Shown here one piece after another: positions 8,590 to 20,639 of a stretch of DNA of 64,000 nt. Below the pieces are notes generated by a model. It had not been told where the DNA came from and did not search any database. It worked only from the letters and a program-made list of their open reading frames with translations. The position numbers and the translations under genes are program-made. Within the stretch, counting starts at the first letter, position 1. Every line of letters begins with the position of its first letter. The DNA is from Corynebacterium lubricantis DSM 45231 (lineage in GTDB: Bacteria > Actinomycetota > Actinomycetes > Mycobacteriales > Mycobacteriaceae), in assembly GCF_000379425.1 (NCBI RefSeq), contig NZ_KB902185.1:1-64000 (forward strand). The letters are read 5' to 3'.

Positions 8590-8690
8590 GAAAGTTCTCC
8601 TACGTGGAATCGGGTTGGCTGCGCAAAACGGCAGTCATTACCGGACCGTAGGTGATATGAATGGCAATCAGTTGAATATGGTGTGAATTT

Positions 8691-9125
8691 TTAACCCGGG
8701 AAGCTCGGATCTGTAATTTTCCGCAAGTCTTCTAACGTGGCACGCAGCTGGTCCATCCGCTTTTTGCCAAGATGTGCGACCCACTCCTGCTCAATCACGC
8801 GCTCTTTTTCCCGCGCCAGTGGCAAGATTTTCTCGCGCGTGTACTCGCTCAGTATCACCAGCCGACTTCGACCGTCTGCAGGATCGGGGGCGCGATGCAC
8901 GAAGCCTGACTTTTCTAGCCTATCGACGAGTGCCGTCGCCGTTTGCCGCGTGATCTGGGCGTAGTCGGCGAGGTCTCCGATGCGGGTGCCGTGCTCGTCG
9001 ATACGCGCGAGGAGTCTGCCCTGCGCCGGTGAGATGTCGTGGCCGGCTTCCATTACAACGTCCATGATGCGCGCTTCGGCGCTGCGATGGGAGATGAACA
9101 TGAGTAGCGCGGTGGAAATTGTCAT
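8691..9125 (-). CDS. MarR-family transcriptional regulator
   Basis: 144 residues with the MarR winged-helix plan: helix-turn-helix ARIDEHGTRIGDLADYAQITRQTATALVDRLE (abridged) and a wing with RAPDPADGRSRLVILS, the family DxRxxxxxLT-like hairpin. It is divergent from the membrane protein/multicopper oxidase pair. Two adjacent inverted repeats in the shared intergenic region are natural operators, so it probably represses itself and the oxidase pair. The ligand is unknown. Confidence 0.85.
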   Translation of the reverse strand: MTISTALLMFISHRSAEARIMDVVMEAGHDISPAQGRLLARIDEHGTRIGDLADYAQITRQTATALVDRLEKSGFVHRAPDPADGRSRLVILSEYTREKILPLAREKERVIEQEWVAHLGKKRMDQLRATLEDLRKITDPSFPG

Positions 9126-9157
9126 GCGTTCTCCTCAGGTTGCGGCCATTGTTTTAG

Positions 9158-9192
9158 TTCGATATTCGAAGTAATATAGTTCGTATATCGAA
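9158..9192. promoter_or_regulatory. paired inverted repeats, candidate MarR operators
   Basis: TTCGATATTCGAA (9158-9170) and TTCGTATATCGAA (9180-9192) are two related imperfect palindromes with centres 22 bp apart, about two helical turns. They lie in an AT-rich divergent promoter region with TATA-like sequences. Size and arrangement fit binding of two MarR dimers on the same face of the DNA. Confidence 0.55.
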
Positions 9193-9294
9193 ATATTTTA
9201 CCAGGTTTCTCCCTGAATTGATTAGAGCAGGATTAGTTCCTCAACGTTCTTCAATCACCAGCGCAGGCGCGCTGTATTAATTCAAGGAGTCATC

Positions 9295-9774
9295 ATGAAA
9301 ACAACCTACCAAGTTCTGGCCTATCTCATTAGCGCCCTCGTTATGGTGCAGGCAGGCTCCCACGCATGGTCCTCCGCCGGAGCCGTGAAATTCATCCAAG
9401 AAGGCGGAACTCTCGATATGACCGGCGCTAGTGGCATCCAATTCCCCGAGATTTATGGCATTGTGATTCACAGTATGAACGGCATGTACGTCATCCCCGT
9501 GGTTGCACTGGTCTTCCTTATTGTTGGCTTTTACACCCAGACCAAATACGGGCTCGTATTGGCAATCGCAACGGCCGTCCTCGTGGGTATCCAGGTGACG
9601 CTGGGCATCACTGCCGCAGGTCTCCCGTTCCTCGCGCTGCTTCACGGGATGAACGCTCTCCTGATCTTCGCGGTTGCTCTCGTCGCCGCGATCTACATGC
9701 GGAGAGTGGGACGAAAGACCGACCTTTACCAGCACCCTGAGAATGTCGATCGGCAGCCAGCTGCGATGACCTGA
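9295..9774 (+). CDS. four-helix membrane protein upstream of multicopper oxidase
   Basis: 159 residues with four hydrophobic helices (about 8-25, 57-78, 83-104 and 112-132) and a polar C-terminal tail. Histidines lie in or next to helices (GSHAW, IVIHSMNG, ALLHGMN), which could bind haem or copper, but I can name no family with confidence (DUF6220-like at best). It starts after AAGGAGTCATC and ends 1 nt before the oxidase ATG, so the two are translationally coupled and probably act together. Confidence 0.65.
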   Translation: MKTTYQVLAYLISALVMVQAGSHAWSSAGAVKFIQEGGTLDMTGASGIQFPEIYGIVIHSMNGMYVIPVVALVFLIVGFYTQTKYGLVLAIATAVLVGIQVTLGITAAGLPFLALLHGMNALLIFAVALVAAIYMRRVGRKTDLYQHPENVDRQPAAMT

Positions 9775-9775
9775 C

Positions 9776-11212
9776 ATGAACACCACCCCAGCTCGCGGCC
9801 CTAAGATCGTCCGGCGGATCGTCGTTACGGTGCTGATCTTGGGGCTCGCCGGTCTCGGCCTCTACTGGTTCCTCAGTCTCGCGCCGGGTGCCTATTCGCT
9901 CGCGCCGAGTGGCGGATACGGACATGGGCACGGCAGTGTGGCCAGTCCGTCGACAGACATCGCATCGCTTATCGACGACCCCGCCCGCCCCGCCGATGTT
10001 CAGCTGCGCATCGAGGCGCAGCTCAATCCCTCGGGTGGCTTCATGCTCAACGGCGCGTCGCCTGGTCCGGAGATTCGGGCAGTGAAGGGTGACATGGTTG
10101 AAGTAGATTTTCACAACGTGGATATCGCCGAGGGCACCACGCTGCACTGGCATGGGATTGATGTGCCGGCGGCGATGGATGGAGTCGCTGGGGTGACTCA
10201 GGACGCGGTGAAACCGGGGGAGTCGTTTACTTACCGGTTCATCGTGGATGATCCGGGAACCTACTGGTATCACTCCCACCAAGTCTCGCACCGGCAGGTG
10301 ATTGGTGGCCTGTTCGGCGTGATCATCGTTGACCCTGAGGGCGGCCTAGCTGAGCAGGAGGTCACTTTGCCGCTGCATACCTACCCCGGTGAATCCCGCA
10401 CTATCGCCGGGTGGGGCACCGGGAGGGGTGCTGAGCAGCGAGTTCAAGCCGAGCCCGGGAGTGTGTGGCGGGTAAGGGTGATCAACACCGACAATCCATC
10501 CGCATTCGTGTGGACGGAATCAGCGAGGCTTGTGGCCATTGACGGCCATGATCTCAACGAGCCTGCTTTGTTTCGCGACAAGAAGATTCGGCTAGGTGCG
10601 GGCGCGCGGGCAGATTTGGAAGTTACCGTCCCCGAGTCAGGCGCTGCTCGAGTTCAGGCGCCGGGAGTCTCTTTGATCCTCGGCGATGGCGATCCCGCGA
10701 TGCTTCCCGCACCTGCGCAGGAACTCGACCTCTTGAGCTACGGCGCCCCAGCCGACGTGGGTTTCGATGTGAGCCAGGCCGATCAACACTTCAACTACGT
10801 GATCAATCGCCGCCCGGGATTCCTCAATGGCAAGCCTGGGTACTGGTGGACCGTTAACGGCCGCATCGGTCACGCCGTTCCACCATTTATGGTAAAAGAA
10901 GGCGAGCTCATCGCGATGGAGATTCGGAACAAGTCCGCCGACGTACATCCGATGCATCTGCATGGGCACCACTTCCTCGTGGTTTCCCGCGACGGGGTGC
11001 GGTCGACCGGTACGCCCTGGTGGACGGACTCACTTGATATCTTGTCAGGGGAGACCTACGAGGTCGTGTTTCCCGCCGACAATCCCGGCATTTGGATGAA
11101 CCATTGCCACAACCTGCCGCACGCCGTCGACGGGCTGATGACGCACCTTTCCTACGAGGGCATCACCACCGACTTCATGCTTGGCCGAAAATCCGGCAAC
11201 GAACCGGAGTGA
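9776..11212 (+). CDS. membrane-anchored multicopper oxidase
   Basis: 478 residues. After a short basic N-terminus, one hydrophobic helix (about 13-34) anchors it outside the membrane. The cupredoxin domains carry all four copper motifs: HWHGIDVP, YHSHQVSH, HPMHLHGHHF and HCHNLPHAVDGLM, giving type 1, 2 and 3 copper ligands. The axial position after the last HxxxxxL is a non-Met residue region, so a mid-to-high potential type 1 site is possible. Substrate unknown: copper(I), manganese or phenolics are all plausible. Coupled to the membrane protein upstream and divergent from a MarR regulator. Confidence 0.9.
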   Translation: MNTTPARGPKIVRRIVVTVLILGLAGLGLYWFLSLAPGAYSLAPSGGYGHGHGSVASPSTDIASLIDDPARPADVQLRIEAQLNPSGGFMLNGASPGPEIRAVKGDMVEVDFHNVDIAEGTTLHWHGIDVPAAMDGVAGVTQDAVKPGESFTYRFIVDDPGTYWYHSHQVSHRQVIGGLFGVIIVDPEGGLAEQEVTLPLHTYPGESRTIAGWGTGRGAEQRVQAEPGSVWRVRVINTDNPSAFVWTESARLVAIDGHDLNEPALFRDKKIRLGAGARADLEVTVPESGAARVQAPGVSLILGDGDPAMLPAPAQELDLLSYGAPADVGFDVSQADQHFNYVINRRPGFLNGKPGYWWTVNGRIGHAVPPFMVKEGELIAMEIRNKSADVHPMHLHGHHFLVVSRDGVRSTGTPWWTDSLDILSGETYEVVFPADNPGIWMNHCHNLPHAVDGLMTHLSYEGITTDFMLGRKSGNEPE

Positions 11213-11213
11213 T

Positions 11214-12278
11214 TTAACCGATCTGAGCTTTGGTGGTGCAATCGATTTTTGCGTACGGTCGGCCCTGATCATCGACGGAGTTCATCGCATAGTTGCCACC
11301 GTATGCTCGGCAGCCGGTGTATTTATCCGCAGCAGGCGCGGCGGGAGCTGGGTCTGGAGCTAGCGCAGGTGCTGGCACCGGCTGTTTTAATGCTTCGAGG
11401 GAGGGTTCTTCCTCTAGGATATTGGGCTCCAATTCTGCAACTGCTCGTCGTAAAGCTTCTTCTTCGCGCTCTGCCTCAACTTCGGCCCTGCGATCGTCCT
11501 CGTTTTCGATCGCGCGCGTGAGACGGTTGGCCTCGCGCTCGGCGCGGGTCTCCTCGTCATCGATGAGCTCCTTGAACCGAGTGCCGTATGCCTCTGTTTG
11601 GAACTCGGACTGGCTAATCTGCGTTGCTTTCAGCGTGGCCAAGGCAAGCACGGCCTCGTCGACAGCACTGGAATGCTCCCGGGCACGGGTGTAGTCGGCG
11701 GCGACAGCGAGGTTGGAGGCCTGGAAATCCTCGGCAGCATTGATCGCCGCCTGAGCCTGTTCGAAGCTGTCCGTGAATTCAGAATCATCGACCATGCACT
11801 CCGGCCCGAGCGCGAAAATACCGGCGGTACGCGCCTCGGCCTCTGCCTCTGCAGCGGAAACCTTTGGATAAAACTTGTGATTCGGTGCGATATCTACGGC
11901 AACGCCTAGTCCCTCGCGCGCGACCTCCGCGTTCACTAAGGAATCTTCCTTATACACGCCAGCGAGAGTGCGTCCGTACTTATCCGTGCGTTCGACGTCG
12001 TACTCAAGAGTTACCTCAGTGCCCACCCCGAGCAGATCCGCGAGATAGTCGCGCGCCTCTTGCGCTAGACACTCAGACGGCTTGCCGTCGCGGCCAATTT
12101 CCGGCGTATCCACATTCAACAGTCGGATGCGAGTTGTCTCACCGTTCTGTCGGACATCGATGGTGTCGCCATCGATGATCTTCTCGACGACGATCGGATC
12201 GTCCGACACCGCGTTAACAAGTGCGCCGCCGCCGACAACAACGGCAGCACCAATGGCGAGAGTGCGCCAAATACCCAT
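11214..12278 (-). CDS. secreted thermonuclease (SNase-like) with coiled-coil and Cys-containing C-terminal domain
   Basis: 354 residues: one N-terminal hydrophobic segment, an SNase domain (about 20-150) with IIDGDTIDV, RIRLLNVDTPEIG and EARDYLADLL, then a long acidic/basic helical stretch rich in Glu, Arg and Ala (about 165-310), a Pro/Ala linker, and a C-terminal two-cysteine module GCRAYGGNYAMN...KIDC. The ATG at 12278 is chosen because GGGAGAA lies 7 nt before it; the upstream in-frame TTG overlaps that Shine-Dalgarno. Probably a Ca-dependent extracellular nuclease. First of three nuclease genes on this strand. Confidence 0.8.
   Translation of the reverse strand: MGIWRTLAIGAAVVVGGGALVNAVSDDPIVVEKIIDGDTIDVRQNGETTRIRLLNVDTPEIGRDGKPSECLAQEARDYLADLLGVGTEVTLEYDVERTDKYGRTLAGVYKEDSLVNAEVAREGLGVAVDIAPNHKFYPKVSAAEAEAEARTAGIFALGPECMVDDSEFTDSFEQAQAAINAAEDFQASNLAVAADYTRAREHSSAVDEAVLALATLKATQISQSEFQTEAYGTRFKELIDDEETRAEREANRLTRAIENEDDRRAEVEAEREEEALRRAVAELEPNILEEEPSLEALKQPVPAPALAPDPAPAAPAADKYTGCRAYGGNYAMNSVDDQGRPYAKIDCTTKAQIG
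11445..11457 (+). repeat. near copy of the dispersed 13-mer (TCGTCGTAAAGCT)
   Basis: One-base variant inside the thermonuclease gene, antisense to it. It keeps the 12-base core TCGTCGTRAAGC. Confidence 0.4.
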
Positions 12279-12384
12279 GTGAAGTTCTCCCAAAAAACAT
12301 GCCGGGCAGTCGGCGCGGCAGCTGACAAGACCCTGTCAGTTTAGTGTGAGCTCCAGCGGGTTAGTTGATGGGGTGATCAGTCGG

Positions 12385-13461
12385 CTACGCCACCCGCATC
12401 GCCCCACCCTGGGCGACCGGGTTGTCGTTGAGCAGTGGCTCCCCGCCGAACGCCGGTACGTGGTAGATCTGGCCATCAATCCGGTCGAGGTGGCCGTACA
12501 TTGGCTTGTCGCGGTCGTCGTCGTTGCGCCCGTTATGGAAACTGCAACACGTGGCTAAATTCTCAATGTTCGTAGTCCCGCCGTTCTTCCACGCTACATT
12601 ATGGTTGACCTGGCAGTACTCTGCGCCGACCCCGCAGCCGTACGCGGCACACACCGGATTCTCCAGTTTGCACATCGTGCGCTGCTTCGGGCTGGGGAAG
12701 CGGCTCGTGCCATACAAGTTGACGGGGCCGGCGACCGGATCGACCAGCATGACTAGGCCGTTCTCGGCGAGTTTCGCCTTAACGAAGTCTTTGCCCGTCA
12801 TCCGTGTGCCGTTGGTCAGCGACAGGACCACGTCGTCGCCGTCTCCTTCGATGATCTTTGTGGCGTCGCCAAGCGAGATAATCACCGCTGGGGTAATCGC
12901 CGACTCGCCGCCAGCGACCCCGCCATTCAGTAGATTCAGCGCCACGAGCGCCGGATGCTCGTCCCCGGAATTGGCATTGAGCGCATCCAACGTCGCCTGA
13001 ATCTGGTGGCTCGGACCCACGATGGTCAACCGGGAATAGGTTGATCCGGAGATCGCGGTCGCACCTAGCGAGGGCTTGTTCACCGGCTTCTCTTTGCCGT
13101 TGTACTTGCGTAACAGCCCCCTGCCGAGGGCCTGCAACGTGCGGATATTAGCGATCTCCGCGCACATTTCTGCCCGGAACTTCCACACCAACTTGGCGCG
13201 CTTGATCTTCTTGGCAAGCTTCTCGATCACCGCCAGCGTGTGCATCGTGTGTTGGTTCTTGCGAGCTGCTTCGACGCATTCCGCTTGACGACGAGTTGCC
13301 TGAGTCGGCCCAAAGTACACCAGTGACAGATCGTGGATCTGTTTAGCCATCTGCGTATCCATGCCAACTTGGCACAGATCGATAGTTTTCATCCCTACGG
13401 CGTCGGCCAGGATCGCCATGGCATCTTGCCACGCGTTGGCGAATTTCTTGAGTGCTGTCAT
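12385..13461 (-). CDS. HNH endonuclease-domain protein (DUF222-like type)
   Basis: 358 residues. A helical N-terminal part of about 240 residues resembles the DUF222 region of the 13E12-type proteins common in actinobacteria. The C-terminal HNH domain has CAAYGCGVGAEYCQVNHNV, then GGTTNIENLATCCSFHN, supplying HNH histidine/asparagine and the zinc cysteines. Role unknown; this family is repetitive and often lies in accessory DNA. It lies between the thermonuclease and the large helicase-nuclease. Confidence 0.8.
   Translation of the reverse strand: MTALKKFANAWQDAMAILADAVGMKTIDLCQVGMDTQMAKQIHDLSLVYFGPTQATRRQAECVEAARKNQHTMHTLAVIEKLAKKIKRAKLVWKFRAEMCAEIANIRTLQALGRGLLRKYNGKEKPVNKPSLGATAISGSTYSRLTIVGPSHQIQATLDALNANSGDEHPALVALNLLNGGVAGGESAITPAVIISLGDATKIIEGDGDDVVLSLTNGTRMTGKDFVKAKLAENGLVMLVDPVAGPVNLYGTSRFPSPKQRTMCKLENPVCAAYGCGVGAEYCQVNHNVAWKNGGTTNIENLATCCSFHNGRNDDDRDKPMYGHLDRIDGQIYHVPAFGGEPLLNDNPVAQGGAMRVA
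13282..13294 (-). repeat. variant of the dispersed 13-mer (TCGTCGTCAAGCG)
   Basis: One-base variant (position 8 C) in minus orientation inside the HNH gene. Confidence 0.35.
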
Positions 13462-13569
13462 GGCACTGACACTAGGGCCGAAAAGAATAAGCGCAGAACA
13501 TGGCGTTTTCGCCTGTGGATAACCTACCTCATGGGTACCGGTTTTCCACAGAAAACGGGCACAACGTGG

Positions 13570-13582
13570 TCGTCGTGAAGCG
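13570..13582 (+). repeat. dispersed 13-mer TCGTCGTRAAGCG, copy 3
   Basis: Exact copy (R=G), intergenic, in the 138 bp between the HNH gene start and the helicase-nuclease stop. It is not in coding sequence. Confidence 0.6.
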
Positions 13583-13599
13583 AAAAAGTCTGTGGGGGA

Positions 13600-16500
13600 T
13601 TAGTTTGAAGTCTCAGCCATGATCCAGTCGTAATGAATTCGGAGGATTTGTTCCGTGTTTTTAGTCAACTTCTTAAAGCCGAGTTCCGCGAGAGTCAGGC
13701 GCATCAACTCTTCTTGGTCGCGGGCGCCAGATCCGTGAAAGACTTCCCGCATGAGCTCCCGCAGTTCCTCGTGTGGAATTTCGGAGATGCTCCGTGGGCC
13801 CTTATCCCGCAAGACTACGGAGGGTTCTCCCGGCAGATAAAACGTGCGGTCCTTGTAACCCAGTCGCTTTCCATCGTTGAGTTCGTGGATGGACTTATCG
13901 TTGATAAGTCGGCTGAGCGCTTGGTTCAATGGGGACGAGACAGATTTTGTGACCCGCACGAACCCGGAAGCCCGAACATATCGGGTGTGTATGAGCTCGC
14001 CGATCATGGGGCCCTCTACCTGTAAAATTTGTAGAATTCCCTGCTCGATTTGGAAGGGTGAAGCTTCCGCGACCGGAACCGTCGTTCCTGAAAACTCCAC
14101 ATATTCAGACACAATCGATGCACTCTTCGTCGAAGACAAGTTGGCCAGAGACAATGTGGAGTCGCTGAAATCCCGCTGGTTGGTGATTAACGGCTTCGGA
14201 GGAGGCGTTGGCGCTGGTGCGAATACTGGAGCTACTTCGACCGGTGGGGGAGAAAGTTCAGCTGCATCTTCAGGCTCGATGTCGTTCTCGTGGAAGGCGA
14301 TCGTCGGGGAATCCGCGTAGAATTCCTCAATGACCTCGATGTTTTGGGTTTCAGACGCGTTAGTCGAACTCGTGCTGAAGGGCTGGATACCCAACGAATC
14401 TAGAGCTGTGAACACACGATTAATTTCAAAGTCCTGGTTTAAGTAGAAATCAGACTCAAAAATCCTGACAAAATTCCACCCCAGACGTTCCAAGTCCCGC
14501 TGTCGAGCTTGGTCGCTTCGAGCGTTTTGATCGCCGTGCCAGTGGTCACCGTCGCATTCGACTGCGAGTCGACCTTCCGTGCCTTGTACGACGAGATCAA
14601 TCTTGTATCCAAACGCATCGAACTGCGGAATGACTTGATAGCCACGGGTGACAATCATGTTGTACACGCGTTGCTCAAAGAGAGAATCGAAGGGTTCGAC
14701 GGGCTCATCGTTTGAGACGAGGTTTGACGACGAAGCCTCCGGAGCGCTTTCCGCGACACTATATGCGTATTGCAACAGGTTAGCTCGAAGGTCCAACTCA
14801 GAATTGAGATCTTCGAGCCCGGCCGAATGAAAAAGCCACACTTGATCCTTGGCGCGGCTGACTGCAACATTGAGCAACTGCTCATGGCGCGCCGTGCTCT
14901 GGGGATGAATCCTTTCACCTGGAGTGCTTGGCTGGACCATCGACAGGAAAATAACATCTCGTTCAGCACCCTGGAAATCCTCGGCGCCGCCGACTTTCAG
15001 ATCGCGGTCTTCCCAAATCGCTGGTTCTAGCTCATTAAGCAAACGCGCCTGGATGTATTTGGCTTGGCCGGAAGTATTGAGAAGTGAGATCACTCCCAGA
15101 GTTTTGCCATCGTATGCAGGATCTTGGAAAACTTTAGCGATACGTTCCACCAAAGCCTGAGCTTCAACCTCATTGACTCGCTTGGTCTTCGTCCCCGAGT
15201 AGAAAGCGTTGGGAGTTCGGGTGATCTTGAATGGCGCCAATCTGCCAGGTTTGATTTCTCGGACTGGCCGAAGTTCGATATTTTCTGGGCGGTAGACCAG
15301 TTGGTTGGAGAACTCGATGATTTCGGGCACCGATCGTCGGTGCTCATCGAGGACGATCCGGCCGCCGTACCACATGTTGGCAGCATCGAAGAGGGACAAC
15401 TTAGGGTCGGTCCACGAGTCGATCTTGTCAAAGTCGCTGAGGAACTGACTTGCCAGGCTATTGAGCGCCTCGAGATCAGTACCAACGGCGGCAGGGGAGA
15501 CCTGTTTATCGTCGCCAATCACGACGATGCGTGGAGCAAGGTACTGGAGGAACACGGAGTCGACGCCTGCCTGCGAAGCTTCGTCGACAATGACAACGTC
15601 AAACATGTTTTCTTCCAACTGGAACTGTTCAACCACTTTATAGATCGGCATGATCCACACCGGAACAGCGCTGCGCGAACTTTCCAAGTGCTTTCGAATA
15701 TCCCGGCGTCGTCGCTCGGCATACTTGCCCGTACCCTTGCCCAAGCGTTTGACGGCTTGAGAGTAGGCCACCAGGTTAGAGCTCATCGCACGATCGATAC
15801 GAGAAGGGTCGACAGCCTTCGACCAGGCGCGATGGGAAGCGAGAGTGGAAAGCCCCCGACTGATTTTCTGATCAATCGCAGCGATCTGATTGTGGAGGCT
15901 AGCTACGTCGTCCGAATTGCGGCTTTCTAGCTCAGTAGACAGTAGCGCCCATTGCCGTGCCGCTTCAAGGTTACGGAGTTGATGGCGTTGCTCGTTATTC
16001 AACGGGGCAGAAAACGCCCGACTGCTCAGATCCTTCGACCAGCCAGCAACACGCTGGCCCAAAGTAATTCGATGGCGAGCCCGAGGTGCAACACCGGATT
16101 GGTCCTGTCCTTGAGAGTAGGCAGTCTCGTACATCTCTGGGTCCAGTGAAGATACGGCCTCTACCAGTTCAAATACCCAAGGAAGCTGGCGGTATTCTTC
16201 TTTGAATACGTCGGCAGAGTCCAAACTTGCGTGAAGTTTATTGGTCAGAGTGGTTGCTTTGTCTAACGCCGTTGAAGCCGCCTCCAATTGTTGAGGTTGG
16301 CTGATCACTTCGTCGAGACGCTCAAGGTCAACCTTGATGCCGACTGATCTGAGCTGTTCAGTATCGGATGAGATGCGCTCGTAGAGCTCGATGGTCTCGC
16401 GAAGGGAGTTCACTGATCCCTGGAAAATTTCGAACTGCGACATCGGCGAGGAGATGTCGGCTGCGGATGCATGCGTCCATTCCCTCTGAAACCTCTCGGC

Positions 16501-18798
16501 CGACCACACGAAGTTGACGTAGCCAAGGTAGCCAGCGATCTGCTCGGCTGTGGTGGGAGGCATTCCGTCCACGCGAACTTTTTCAAGGAAATCCTGTGAT
16601 TCCTTCACCACTCGGGGAGTAAACAGCCCAATCTTCGTCGTGCCATCGCTCTTCGTTTTGATCTCGCCGCCAGACTGAACATGCTCCAGCAACGCCTGCG
16701 CGCTCGGGACGAAGGAATCCACGGCACCATCGACCGAAATCTTTCTCAGTCCCGCCAGACCCTGCACGATAGAACCAAGTTCGGCCAACTGGTTTTCCAG
16801 TGCAGTCAGCGTGCGCCGCCACGGTGAAAGCTGGTGCTGTGATGCGTCCGCGCGCAGTTCGCTCATCCACGGATCAGTCCTGTTCGAAGCAGTGTGATTC
16901 ACACTCACAAGCTCGCGGGCGGTTTCTTGCACAGCCGCCTTCTTTTCGTCCCCAAGCATTCTCCATTTGTCGAGAGTGGCCTCGTCGACAAGTGAAGCGT
17001 GCTCTTCGTACTTTTTCCGCGCAGAAGCGAGCAGCTCGGTCTGCGCGCGGAATTCCGTGGGGGTGGGAACGAGCGAAAGATCAAACTGGTCGGAAAACTG
17101 CAGTTCGGGCGCGGTGCGGAGTTGGTCGTCGTCGAGAAGTTCGATCCATTCTTCGATTTCGTCCTGGGTCAGCGGGAAAGGCTGCTGCAAGTCCGCGATA
17201 GTGAGGTCCTTGATCCAACGGTGCGTCGATTCGCCCTTTTGCCAGGCTTCGACGGCCTGCGCCATCGTCAGTGACTGCCCGCCATACTCAAAATGCTGGT
17301 GCTCCGAATCCATTCGATCCGTCCACCGACGCATGAGATCTGTCCGCTGTTCTTGTAAACGTTTTAGCGCAAGCTCGTTGTTGCGAATCTCTTTTTGCGC
17401 CTGATCAGGGTTAAAGTTTTGGGAGCGGCGGTTAATGGTCTCAACGGCAACCTTGAGGTCAGCAAGGTCGTCTTGGTTGGAACTAATCATCGAAACGGCC
17501 AGCTCACGGATATCTTCGGGCAGTTTGCCACGCAGCTCGTACAAGGCACGGTCGGCTTCCGCGGTAACAAGCACGCGCATTCCTTGCGCGAGTAAGTGCG
17601 ATACGAGCGCCGCCGCCATGTGGGTCTTGCCAGTTCCAGGGGGTCCTTGCACGATCGTTTGCGCATGCGAATCCACGCGCTGCAGCACGTCCCGTTGCTT
17701 TCTATTCAGCGGGAGAGGAGTGAAAATTTCCCCGTCGACATCAAGCACCGCACCCGGCTCGGAGCTTGGCGGAACCGGATTCTCAGCATTGGGGTCCAAG
17801 AGTGTGACTAGTCCTGGCGGGACATGTCCGGATTCCAGAATGTCGTCCGCGATTTTCGCAAACGCAGTTGATAGCCCAGCGCGCTGGCGAGGGCGCATCA
17901 CAATCGTCGGCTCCCAAGACAGGGTTGGCGTGGTCGTCGGATGCGTATGTTGCCAGCGCGGGTCATAGACGGCGTTGGTGCTGAGTCCATTGACCGTAAT
18001 ACTGCCGAGCTCAGAAAACGACTCTTCGGATAGGAGCGCTCCGTCGAAATCCTCAAGGGCACGTTCTACATCGTTGAGAAAACTAGCGTCGGCTAGCTTC
18101 TGTGACAAAACTGCATCAAATTCTGGATGGAGGCTTCCGTCGCCGATCCGGAAATAAATGTTGCCCGATTGCTTCTCAAGTTCGCTTTCAATGACGATGC
18201 TGAAAACATGCTTGTCGATCGTGTCTGAATTGGGAATCTGCCAGCCGAGATTGCCAAGCCCTAGAACAAGCTCAAACTCGTCGTTCTTTTGGGAAGCGCT
18301 CATGTGGATATCAAAGGCCTTCTGATAAAGCTCCTGATATTTCGCTGACAGAGCCCACAGGTCCCACTGCTCGAGCCACCGGTTGAGACGGTCCAGTTCA
18401 GCCACGGACAGGTCTTCCTTGTTTTCCCGTGATTGCAGAACAACGGGCCGCTTGTGCGGATTGTCTTGCGCACCCGAAAGCCACTCGGCTAGCTGGGCAT
18501 CAAGCTCGGGGAAATCGATCTGGTCTGGACGCTCGAAGGAAGCAATGAGGTCGGCATCGGAGCCATTGCTTTGCGACGATTCCAGCTCTTCGTGCTCGGG
18601 ATACAGCGCTAGGCGCAGGTCACTGCCAAACCTCACGCCACCAAGTTGGGCGGCCTCGGAGGTGAGATCTTCGAGGCGGAGAACTGCACCGCCGTTCTTG
18701 GCGTACTCCCCGGTGGAAAAGTAAGTCTTCTCTTTCGAGCGTTGCCGCTCGGAGAGGTACTTGAATAGCCGAGAGGCTTTGTCAGAAATGGAAGCCAT
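13600..18798 (-). CDS. giant SF1 (Upf1-like, COG1112) helicase fused to a Vsr/DUF559-type nuclease; candidate defence protein
   Basis: 1732 residues. Helicase motifs: Walker A GPPGTGKT (about 386), motif II IVDEASQ (about 1072), motif III GDDKQVSP, LDEHRRSVPEIIEFSN, DFQGAERDVI, and motif VI NVAVSRAKDQ (about 1310). A long insert of about 600 residues, partly coiled-coil, separates Walker A from motif II. A PD-(D/E)XK-like domain of Vsr/DUF559 type follows (AVECDGDHWHG, about 1414), then a Pro-rich linker and a DUF3320-like C-terminal domain (about 1560-1732, RSISEIPHEEL). ATG 18798 has GGAG 9 nt upstream; a GTG 11 codons earlier has no Shine-Dalgarno. The layout resembles single-protein phage-defence helicase-nucleases (Mokosh is analogous but uses a PLD nuclease). 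Confidence 0.85.
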   Translation of the reverse strand: MASISDKASRLFKYLSERQRSKEKTYFSTGEYAKNGGAVLRLEDLTSEAAQLGGVRFGSDLRLALYPEHEELESSQSNGSDADLIASFERPDQIDFPELDAQLAEWLSGAQDNPHKRPVVLQSRENKEDLSVAELDRLNRWLEQWDLWALSAKYQELYQKAFDIHMSASQKNDEFELVLGLGNLGWQIPNSDTIDKHVFSIVIESELEKQSGNIYFRIGDGSLHPEFDAVLSQKLADASFLNDVERALEDFDGALLSEESFSELGSITVNGLSTNAVYDPRWQHTHPTTTPTLSWEPTIVMRPRQRAGLSTAFAKIADDILESGHVPPGLVTLLDPNAENPVPPSSEPGAVLDVDGEIFTPLPLNRKQRDVLQRVDSHAQTIVQGPPGTGKTHMAAALVSHLLAQGMRVLVTAEADRALYELRGKLPEDIRELAVSMISSNQDDLADLKVAVETINRRSQNFNPDQAQKEIRNNELALKRLQEQRTDLMRRWTDRMDSEHQHFEYGGQSLTMAQAVEAWQKGESTHRWIKDLTIADLQQPFPLTQDEIEEWIELLDDDQLRTAPELQFSDQFDLSLVPTPTEFRAQTELLASARKKYEEHASLVDEATLDKWRMLGDEKKAAVQETARELVSVNHTASNRTDPWMSELRADASQHQLSPWRRTLTALENQLAELGSIVQGLAGLRKISVDGAVDSFVPSAQALLEHVQSGGEIKTKSDGTTKIGLFTPRVVKESQDFLEKVRVDGMPPTTAEQIAGYLGYVNFVWSAERFQREWTHASAADISSPMSQFEIFQGSVNSLRETIELYERISSDTEQLRSVGIKVDLERLDEVISQPQQLEAASTALDKATTLTNKLHASLDSADVFKEEYRQLPWVFELVEAVSSLDPEMYETAYSQGQDQSGVAPRARHRITLGQRVAGWSKDLSSRAFSAPLNNEQRHQLRNLEAARQWALLSTELESRNSDDVASLHNQIAAIDQKISRGLSTLASHRAWSKAVDPSRIDRAMSSNLVAYSQAVKRLGKGTGKYAERRRRDIRKHLESSRSAVPVWIMPIYKVVEQFQLEENMFDVVIVDEASQAGVDSVFLQYLAPRIVVIGDDKQVSPAAVGTDLEALNSLASQFLSDFDKIDSWTDPKLSLFDAANMWYGGRIVLDEHRRSVPEIIEFSNQLVYRPENIELRPVREIKPGRLAPFKITRTPNAFYSGTKTKRVNEVEAQALVERIAKVFQDPAYDGKTLGVISLLNTSGQAKYIQARLLNELEPAIWEDRDLKVGGAEDFQGAERDVIFLSMVQPSTPGERIHPQSTARHEQLLNVAVSRAKDQVWLFHSAGLEDLNSELDLRANLLQYAYSVAESAPEASSSNLVSNDEPVEPFDSLFEQRVYNMIVTRGYQVIPQFDAFGYKIDLVVQGTEGRLAVECDGDHWHGDQNARSDQARQRDLERLGWNFVRIFESDFYLNQDFEINRVFTALDSLGIQPFSTSSTNASETQNIEVIEEFYADSPTIAFHENDIEPEDAAELSPPPVEVAPVFAPAPTPPPKPLITNQRDFSDSTLSLANLSSTKSASIVSEYVEFSGTTVPVAEASPFQIEQGILQILQVEGPMIGELIHTRYVRASGFVRVTKSVSSPLNQALSRLINDKSIHELNDGKRLGYKDRTFYLPGEPSVVLRDKGPRSISEIPHEELRELMREVFHGSGARDQEELMRLTLAELGFKKLTKNTEQILRIHYDWIMAETSN

Positions 18799-18937
18799 AG
18801 GGACAATCTCCGTGGAATCAACCGGGTGCACTGGGAAGACGCGTATGAAAGCGTCTCAATGAGTGTAATGCTTGATCCAAAAACCAATGAGTTTAGGTAG
18901 CATTACAAAACTGGCGCGAGGCCTTAAATTCACGCGT

Positions 18938-18950
18938 TCGTCGTAAAGCG
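18938..18950 (+). repeat. dispersed 13-mer TCGTCGTRAAGCG, copy 4
   Basis: Exact copy (R=A), intergenic between the helicase-nuclease start and the accD1 terminator. Confidence 0.6.
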
Positions 18951-18972
18951 GGTCGTTTTAAAGCACAAAAAT

Positions 18973-18994
18973 GCCCCCGCGTGGAAGCGGGGGC
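18973..18994 (-). terminator. intrinsic terminator of accD1
   Basis: Perfect 8-bp GC stem GCCCCCGC / GCGGGGGC with loop GTGGAA. On the minus strand it is followed by ATTTTTGTG, 14 bp beyond the accD1 stop. Confidence 0.85.
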
Positions 18995-19007
18995 AAAACT
19001 GCAATCT

Positions 19008-20639
19008 TTAGAGCGGGATGTTGCCGTGCTTGCGCGCCGGGCGCGTCACGTTCTTGTCCTTGTACAGGCGCAGGTTGCGGGCGATGACGCCGCGGGTCTC
19101 GGAAGGCAGGATGACCGAGTCGATCAGGCCACGCTCAGCCGCGAGGTATGGGTTGAGCATGAAGTCCTCGTACTCGCGCTCGAAGCTCTTCGCCAGTTCG
19201 TCGACGTCGAGGTCCTTCTCGCGTGCCTCTGCGAGCTCCTTGCGGTAGATGAAGCCGACGGCTCCGGCAGCGCCCATCACGGCGATCTGCGCGGTTGGCC
19301 ACGCGAGGTTCACGTCGGCACCGAGGCCCTTGGAACCCATCACGCAGTATGCGCCGCCGTAAGCCTTGCGCATGGTGACGGTGATCTTCGGAACGGTTGC
19401 CTCACCGTAGGCGTAGAGCAGCTTCGCGCCGCGGCGCAGGATGCCGCCGTACTCCTGGCCAGCGCCAGGCAGGAAGCCCGGGACGTCGACGAGCATGACG
19501 ATCGGCACGTTGAACGCGTCGCAGGTGCGGATGAAGCGCGCGGCCTTCTCGGAAGCGTCGATGTCCAGGCAGCCAGCGTAGACGTTGGGCTGGTTGGCCA
19601 CGAAGCCGACGGACTGGCCTTCGATGCGTCCAAAAGCGATAACAACGTTCTCGGCGCGCTGCTCCATGATCTCGAGGTACTCGCCGTCGTCGGTAAGCTT
19701 CTCAATCACTTCGCGCACGTCGTATGGCTGGGTTGGGGAGTCCGGGATGATGCCGTCGAGCGCGAGGTCGTCGGCGGTCATGTTTTCCTCAACGCTGCCC
19801 TCGTCCTTGGAGTGCTCCTCGGTTGGCGCGAAGGTGCGGTTGTTGGAAGGTAGGAAGGAGACTAGGTCGGAGACGTAGTCGAGCGCGTCTTCGTCGTTCT
19901 TTGCCACGTAGTGGCAGTTGCCGGCGGTGGTCATGTGCGTCATTGCGCCGCCGAGCTCTTCCTGGGTGATTTCCTCGCCGGTGACGGTCTTGATCACGTC
20001 TGGGCCGGTGACGAACATCTTGGAGGTCTTGTCCACCATGATGACGAAGTCGGTCAGCGCAGGGGAGTACGCGTTGCCGCCAGCGGAAGCACCCATGATT
20101 ACGGAGATCTGCGGGACAACACCGGAGGCGTTGATGTTCTGGTAGAAGGTCTGCGCGATCAGGTCCAGCGACACAGCGCCGTCCTGGATACGTGCGCCGG
20201 CACCTTCGTAAAGGCCGATCAGGGGGCGGCCAGTGGTCACGGCGAGCTCCATGATCTTGATCATCTTTTCGCCGTACACCTCGCCGAGTGCGCCGCCGAA
20301 GACGGTGCCGTCCTGGGAGAAGATGCAGACTTCGCGGCCGTCGATGGTGCCCCAGCCGGTGACGATGCCGTCGGTGACAGGACGCTTCGCCTGCATGCCG
20401 AAGTCGTGGGTGCGGTGGCGCGCGAGCTGGTCGGTTTCCACGAAGGAGCCTTCGTCGAGCAGGTAGTCGAGGCGTTCGCGGGCGGTGAGCTTGCCCTTCT
20501 CGTGTACCTTTTCGATCGCCTTCTCGCCCATCGGCTGGGCAGCCTCGGCGCGGCGCTTCTTCAGGTCAGCGATTTTACCGGCAGTGGTCTGGTTGTCGGC
20601 GATGTTCTCGAGATCCGTGAAACTTGAGGAAACTGTCAT
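19008..20639 (-). CDS. accD1: acyl-CoA carboxylase carboxyltransferase (beta) subunit AccD1/DtsR1
   Basis: 543 residues, the size of C. glutamicum DtsR1/AccD1. It transfers CO2 from biotin (on AccBC) to acetyl-CoA for fatty-acid synthesis. The two crotonase-like halves are visible: [14 protein letters not shown] and [16 protein letters not shown] in the N-half, and [18 protein letters not shown] then [19 protein letters not shown] with [14 protein letters not shown] in the C-half. Divergent from birA as in C. glutamicum, which favours AccD1 over the propionyl-CoA or mycolate paralogues. A second carboxylase gene (dtsR2) that sits next to it in C. glutamicum is absent here. Confidence 0.88.

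Follow-up and report, generated by a model that had tools for sequence, protein, structure and literature searches.

A 1732-residue helicase-nuclease of Corynebacterium lubricantis as a candidate stand-alone anti-phage enzyme

Introduction

Does a very large helicase-nuclease, encoded by a single gene between phoD and accD1 in Corynebacterium lubricantis DSM 45231, act on its own against phages, and on which nucleic acid would it act? The question arose from a 64,000-nucleotide stretch of contig NZ_KB902185.1 (hereafter the window), in which an original prediction had singled out the gene as a possible single-protein defence system and had recognised no named system with the same plan. Here we examine the protein domain by domain, place it among catalogued families, trace its distribution and gene neighbourhoods, and weigh the explanations for its role.

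Results

The gene and its product

The open reading frame is intact and occupies 13600-18831 on the minus strand, with 1743 codons counted from a GTG. The ATG at 18798, which gives a product of 1732 residues, is the better start, because a GGAG lies nine bases upstream of it and because five homologues (L074, L075, L077, L079 and L082) have the same first residue as the ATG product; the frame first described, 13600-18798, is thus real. The protein is an SF1 helicase, a Vsr-type nuclease and a winged-helix tail in one chain (Table 1), and the GC content of its gene is 54.7%, compared with 59.6% across the window.

Table 1. Features of the helicase-nuclease gene and its locus (positions in the window)
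Feature	Position	Strand	Basis
Helicase-nuclease gene, 1732 aa with ATG; longer GTG start at 18831 less likely	13600..18798	-	ORF, homologue starts, GGAG
Residues 1-340, N-terminal region, helices and beta-strands; putative UPF1-type stalk/1B part	17779..18798	-	Structural model and alignment
Residues 365-444, Q motif, Walker A (G385PPGTGK391) and start of RecA1	17467..17706	-	Pfam, conservation
Residues 441-1045, mostly helical, coiled-coil-like insert between Walker A and motif II	15664..17478	-	Family comparison, structural model
Residues 1046-1324, end of RecA1 (motifs II, III) and RecA2 (motifs V, VI)	14827..15663	-	Pfam, conservation
Residues 1374-1466, Vsr-type nuclease, PF18741 MTES_1575; E1375, D1401, E1414, D1416, H1421, D1429	14401..14679	-	Pfam, model, fold match, conservation
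Residues 1477-1558, linker, probably disordered (pLDDT mostly <50)	14125..14370	-	C-terminal model
Residues 1560-1732, T1-type tail: winged helix (about 1577-1658) and C-terminal helices; weak DUF3320 match at 1583-1621	13603..14121	-	Pfam, model, tail classes
Variable stretch of about 10.4 kb between phoD and accD1, contains the gene	8590..19007	.	Comparison with relatives

A UPF1-like motor with a long helical insert

Conservation was counted over 48 near-full-length sequences, namely the present protein and 47 relatives. The motifs N365/Q368, G385PPGTGK391, D1072EASQ, G1095DDKQ, F1275QG.ER and N1310VA.SRA are invariant or nearly so, which upholds the full set of SF1 motifs first read from the sequence, and N365, Q368, GPPGTGK, D1072, E1073, S1075, Q1076, G1095, D1096, Q1099 and N1310 are identical in all 48. 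The two helicase halves correspond to AAA_11 and AAA_12 in Pfam, and a sequence profile of the whole family retrieved SEN1 from the PDB with E 5e-19, followed by SETX, UPF1 and DNA2. The very long insert that had been noticed between Walker A and motif II is present in the relatives too; in the present protein it covers residues of about 441-1045 and is mostly helical in the model. At its end, before motif II, lies a G1020KGTGK1025 motif (15724-15741, minus strand) that is near-invariant (41 to 48 of 48).

A structural model of residues 1-1130 (mean pLDDT 82.2) was aligned by VIA-align with human UPF1 (2gk7) at Z 17.6, with 330 aligned residues, an rmsd of 4.8 and a range, given by its ends only, of model residues 4..1130, with IGHMBP2 at Z 17.5 and with DNA2 (5ean) at Z 16.4; all three alignments begin at residue 1 to 5 of the model. 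A Pfam search gave no match in residues 1-340, and residues 1-372, used as a profile against the PDB, matched no chain, the best being lactoferrin at E 0.27. Judging from the ranges and lengths of the alignments, which exceed the about 125 to 150 residues of rows with only the RecA fold in common, this N-terminal region would fit the stalk and 1B part of the UPF1 type, and its 340 residues may be part of a UPF1/DNA2-like core. Foldseek ranked coiled-coil proteins first for the same model, mostly SMC-like and dynein-like ones in the PDB and SMC/Rad50-like ones in a viral library, and placed UPF1 at only about E 8e-3, which is not significant. We take the likeness of this large model to SMC, dynein and Rad50 as a coiled coil in common and nothing more.

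A Vsr-type nuclease with near-invariant residues

PF18741 (MTES_1575) matches residues 1374-1466 with E 5.7e-29 and 100.5 bits, against a curated cut-off of 38.2. A nuclease of the Vsr/DUF559 type had been expected, of which the Vsr-type assignment stands through this match, whereas DUF559 itself gave only a sub-cut-off Pfam match. E1375, D1401, E1414 and D1418 are kept in all 48 sequences, D1416 in 47, and H1421 and D1429 in 44 each; the E, D, H, D pattern recalls that of the EDxHD nucleases. A second model, of residues 1330-1732 (mean pLDDT 80.7), comprises the nuclease, then a low-confidence linker, then a winged helix and further helices. Foldseek against the PDB returned no nuclease match for this model at E 0.001 or better, the best match of the nuclease being the homing endonuclease I-Bth0305I (3r3p) at E 1.4e-2 with probability 1.00. 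By VIA-align the nuclease matched I-Bth0305I at Z 12.4 (96 aligned, rmsd 2.3), the putative endonuclease-like 3hrl at Z 11.8 and Vsr (1cw0) at Z 10.2. Two mitoribosomal proteins, at Z 10.3 and 10.1, are tied with Vsr and also stand among the five best, so that the nuclease fold alone does not settle DNA versus RNA as the substrate.

A tail that changes between relatives

Conservation ends past residue 1475, and the tail used as a sequence query gave no PDB match. The tail had been described as DUF3320-like: the Pfam match is below the cut-off (E 0.088), but a winged helix is modelled with confidence there, and the wHTH of MTES_1575 is described, in the part of the paper available, as overlapping DUF3320 (PMC3710099). 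Because many winged-helix domains score alike by VIA-align (Z 8.6 to 9.7), these matches tell little about function. The tails of 57 homologues were sorted into T1 (17), T2 (9), T3 (5), fewer than 50 residues (11) and other (15); the present protein has a T1 tail, the sole class that was modelled, with a winged helix as the outcome. None of the tails matched two of the three tail profiles at E 0.001, with E-values that are inflated because the profiles were rebuilt from their own matches. T1 tails are found on both sides of the tree, on which 21 tail changes were counted, a number that is a rough guide only because the class of other tails lumps unlike ones. The catalytic residues hardly vary across the family, whereas the tail is subject to exchange and loss. 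By eye, an Acidobacteriota homologue (L046) apparently has two T1-like units in tandem (L046:13505-15304).

A domain plan that is already catalogued

The statement that no named system has this plan does not hold. The PADLOC family PDC-S37, where PDC stands for phage defence candidate in the accessible portion of its source (PMC11514479), matches residues 368-1719 to positions 298-1526 of a 1550-position model with E 5.6e-67 (by E-value, PADLOC's own thresholds aside). Helicase, insert, nuclease and tail are all aligned, whereas the first 297 model positions are not. PDC-S37 was not found named in the literature searched, nor was a defence test of it or of the present protein. MTES_1575 of Microbacterium testaceum, after which PF18741 is named, was described in 2013 as a chain of HEPN, transglutaminase, SF-I helicase, Vsr REase and two wHTH domains (PMC3710099, as far as its available text goes); it has in common with the present protein the SF-I helicase, the Vsr-type REase and a wHTH that overlaps DUF3320, but its HEPN and transglutaminase domains were not matched here by Pfam. 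In the UPF1-like helicases of CoCoNuT systems, Walker A is followed by a large helical insertion, and type III-B has a Vsr-like nuclease fused to the helicase (PMC11090510, in the excerpt at hand). The CnuH of III-B thus resembles the present protein in its UPF1-like SF1 helicase, OB-type part, large helical insert and fused Vsr-like nuclease, and differs in that its wHTH is N-terminal, according to the same excerpt, rather than C-terminal. The plan is, in short, that of PDC-S37, with a core already on record for MTES_1575 and a helicase-nuclease fusion as in CoCoNuT III-B.

The NCBIfam model for anti-phage ProA (NF058533) aligns residues 356-1710 to its positions 642-1903 in one stretch, but leaves its first 641 positions unaligned and reaches 209 bits against an equivalog cut-off of 1500; the name implies that a tested relative exists, and no paper on ProA was found in the literature searched. 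Hhe (NF042953) aligns in the helicase part (residues 1062-1467), but at 129 bits against a cut-off of 2000, and Pfam found no DUF4011 in the present protein. The helicase part of MkoC from Mokosh type II, the system named as an example in the original prediction, aligns with residues 799-1328; a PLD-like nuclease domain is tabulated for that system (PMC10952713), whereas Pfam found no PLD match here and the nuclease is PF18741. Hna is described, in the accessible part of its paper, as an auto-inhibited dimer of an ATPase-exonuclease with 3'-5' exonuclease activity that is activated by phage SSB (PMC13381803); ATPase and nuclease sites in one protein are the likeness, which is an analogy of mechanism only, and no Hna model was among the matches at E 0.01. 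Each of the 23 family members that were scanned gave matches to PDC-S37, ProA and Hhe, but equally to the Mokosh models and the general IGHMBP2-type helicase model TIGR00376, so that matches to anti-phage models are partly generic.

Patchy distribution and mixed history

A search of 201 genomes of the genus with this protein gave matches at E 1e-20 in 14, the own genome among them, and none at that threshold in the other 187. Across the order, matches at E 1e-60 came from 29 of 200 genomes (the own one counted), which belong to 16 of the 61 genera; some of these may be wider relatives, because about half of the matches cover part of the protein only. The three nearest congeners by accD1 (G141, G088 and G027), in which accD1 is 94% identical, all lack the gene. 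The 14 carriers fall into 12 neighbourhoods, two or more flanking ORFs in common being counted as the same neighbourhood: G023, G114 and G199 have one in common, and G055 and G103 a single gene. A patchy distribution in the genus, which was to be checked, was thus found, with carriers at differing sites, and universal vertical conservation, looked for as the finding that would speak against a defence gene, is ruled out in the 201-genome sample; the gene behaves like an accessory gene. In two carriers, G103 (L083, L084) and G156 (L087, L088), the homologue is in two pieces at contig ends, probably through assembly breaks.

In a quick tree, 13 congeneric rows form one clade (SH-aLRT 98) that adjoins other actinobacteria, and since three of the congeneric copies also lie at one locus, the history is vertical in part. 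In another part of the tree, Nitrospirota, Myxococcota, Pseudomonadota, Chlorobiota, Planctomycetota and others stand intermixed on short end branches in a set of 13 rows (SH-aLRT 87), which suggests transfer between phyla, 12 of these 13 rows being metagenome bins and possibly contaminated. Gene order and tree therefore indicate both vertical descent and movement. Relatives on mobile elements comprise one match (E 6e-17) in 50,697 phage records, at least two confirmed distant relatives on viral contigs, and 44 plasmid records at E 1e-30, none of which covers 80% of the protein and most of which are limited to the last helicase part and the nuclease.

The locus between phoD and accD1

In the close relative G088, phoD and accD1 are about 0.4 kb apart, as compared with about 10.4 kb in the window. 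The gene had been placed where C. glutamicum has dtsR2 next to accD1, and in agreement with this, accD1 is adjoined at this position by a further accD paralogue, 51-56% identical to it, in nine of twelve relatives that were hand-picked among those with high accD1 identity and among which C. glutamicum does not figure by name; four of the nine carry the helicase at another site. A look for traces of site-specific insertion gave no exact direct 10-mer common to 8590-8700 and 18800-19010 of the window. Of the 10.4-kb stretch, 40 relatives (24 of the genus, 16 of the order) yielded pieces only and in no case the whole.

The other genes near the helicase-nuclease include an HNH gene, a multicopper oxidase gene and accD1. 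The HNH neighbour (12385-13461, minus strand), already pointed out as flanking the gene, is confirmed exactly at the Pfam cut-off (21.4 bits). Its family matches in 105 of the 201 genus genomes, many with at least ten matches each, and has further copies on C55 and C56 of the own genome; we rejected it as a partner because such a dispersed, multi-copy gene marks no system. Some copies of the HNH family have an in-frame stop. An SNase-type gene (11214-12293, minus strand; Pfam SNase) matches PADLOC C3a212 (SNc+LTD) at E 1.7e-22, the sole PADLOC match among the window neighbours scanned. Neither McrB nor McrC was found among these neighbours, and the sole McrC-family match (McrBC, PF10117) of the own genome is on another contig (G000:C16:10457-11332, L125).

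Neighbourhoods of the homologues

No conserved partner gene emerged among 304 ORFs neighbouring the homologues (the nearest three per side). The widest cluster of neighbours, with representatives at seven loci, is a mixture of helicases, restriction-type and other, and a second one of seven members consists of pieces and copies of the homologue itself. In Rhodococcus (L052, L053, L055 and L057) a related gene overlaps the end of the homologue, possibly as a two-gene version; the copy scanned, in L052, is PbeA-like.

At E 1e-10, the PADLOC families with a match numbered 145 for 83 proteins next to the genus homologues (six of these proteins lie in the window), as against 52 for 89 control proteins from 15 random loci in five carrier genomes, a comparison that counts families and not proteins, one helicase being able to match dozens, and in which the overlap of random loci L109 and L110 leads to a few control proteins being counted twice. 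In two ten-protein sets of homologue neighbours, chosen by size or sharing and not at random, five and nine proteins had PADLOC matches. Neighbours that were likewise chosen rather than sampled include type IV restriction enzymes (L074, L047, L048), GmrSD-type or HEC-06 genes (L078, L086, L037), a type IIG enzyme (L083), a type I methyltransferase (L026) and BrxHI- or DrmD-like (BREX/DISARM-like) helicases (L031, L077, L078, L083). Because neighbours were hand-chosen and random loci also hold restriction genes, these neighbourhoods make no case for an enrichment of defence genes.

Discussion

As a single-gene helicase-nuclease that is catalogued as PDC-S37 and is patchily distributed at differing sites, the protein bears out its selection as a defence candidate. 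We consider it likely that it is a stand-alone anti-phage enzyme of the PDC-S37/MTES_1575 kind, a prediction that rests on the SF1 motifs, the modelled fold, the kept nuclease residues, the modelled tail, the patchy and changing sites and the lack of a conserved partner. Given such a role, DNA would be its more probable substrate. UPF1/DNA2-like helicases have 5' to 3' polarity, and the motor would load on single-stranded stretches or ends of the invading nucleic acid and move 5' to 3'. The stalk and the helical insert might restrain the nuclease or couple it to this movement, and the nuclease would cut whatever the motor engages, more likely DNA, while the tail may tune the binding target or the way in which the enzyme stays inactive.

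The alternative that survives best retains the anti-phage role and changes the target, in that the motor would run on phage transcripts and the Vsr-type domain would cut RNA, as in the predicted CoCoNuT CnuH. The core is nearest to SEN1, SETX, UPF1 and IGHMBP2, the five best fold matches of the nuclease include two mitoribosomal proteins, and CoCoNuT III-B, with a UPF1-like helicase, a helical insert and a fused Vsr-like domain, is argued to target RNA in the available part of the paper (PMC11090510). However, the nuclease fold is matched best by a homing endonuclease that acts on DNA, the alignment with the DNA enzyme DNA2 falls little short of that with UPF1 (Z 16.4 versus 17.6), and the neighbours scanned include no McrB/McrC gene, so that we regard RNA-directed defence as possible, though rather unlikely. 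That the enzyme acts against plasmids or other incoming DNA instead of phages seems improbable to us: relatives do occur on the 44 plasmid records, none covering 80% of the protein, but the nearest named models are anti-phage systems. Least probable of all is an accessory, DNA2-like repair or recombination enzyme with no part in defence, for although helicase and nuclease in one chain resemble DNA2 and the repair enzyme Vsr has the same nuclease fold, the gene is absent at E 1e-20 from 187 of 201 genomes of the genus and sits at differing sites in its carriers, and tail swaps and the PDC-S37 match fit conflict genes better.

Under the preferred reading of a stand-alone anti-phage enzyme, the changing tail invites a more speculative proposal. 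Here we tentatively suggest that the tail is an exchangeable targeting or trigger cassette, whose swapping might re-aim a single-protein defence built on one conserved helicase-nuclease engine, in a way loosely comparable to the exchange of specificity domains in type I restriction. On this proposal, the engine would be paired with at least three mutually non-matching tail families, with further unclassified tails or with no tail.

Together, these data give domain limits, near-invariant residues and the distribution of a widespread family that PADLOC lists as a candidate only (PDC-S37). They also make the family testable, since a single gene is involved, two point mutants suggest themselves and natural carriers have close relatives that lack the gene, and the point most worth pursuing is the possibly exchangeable tail on a constant engine.
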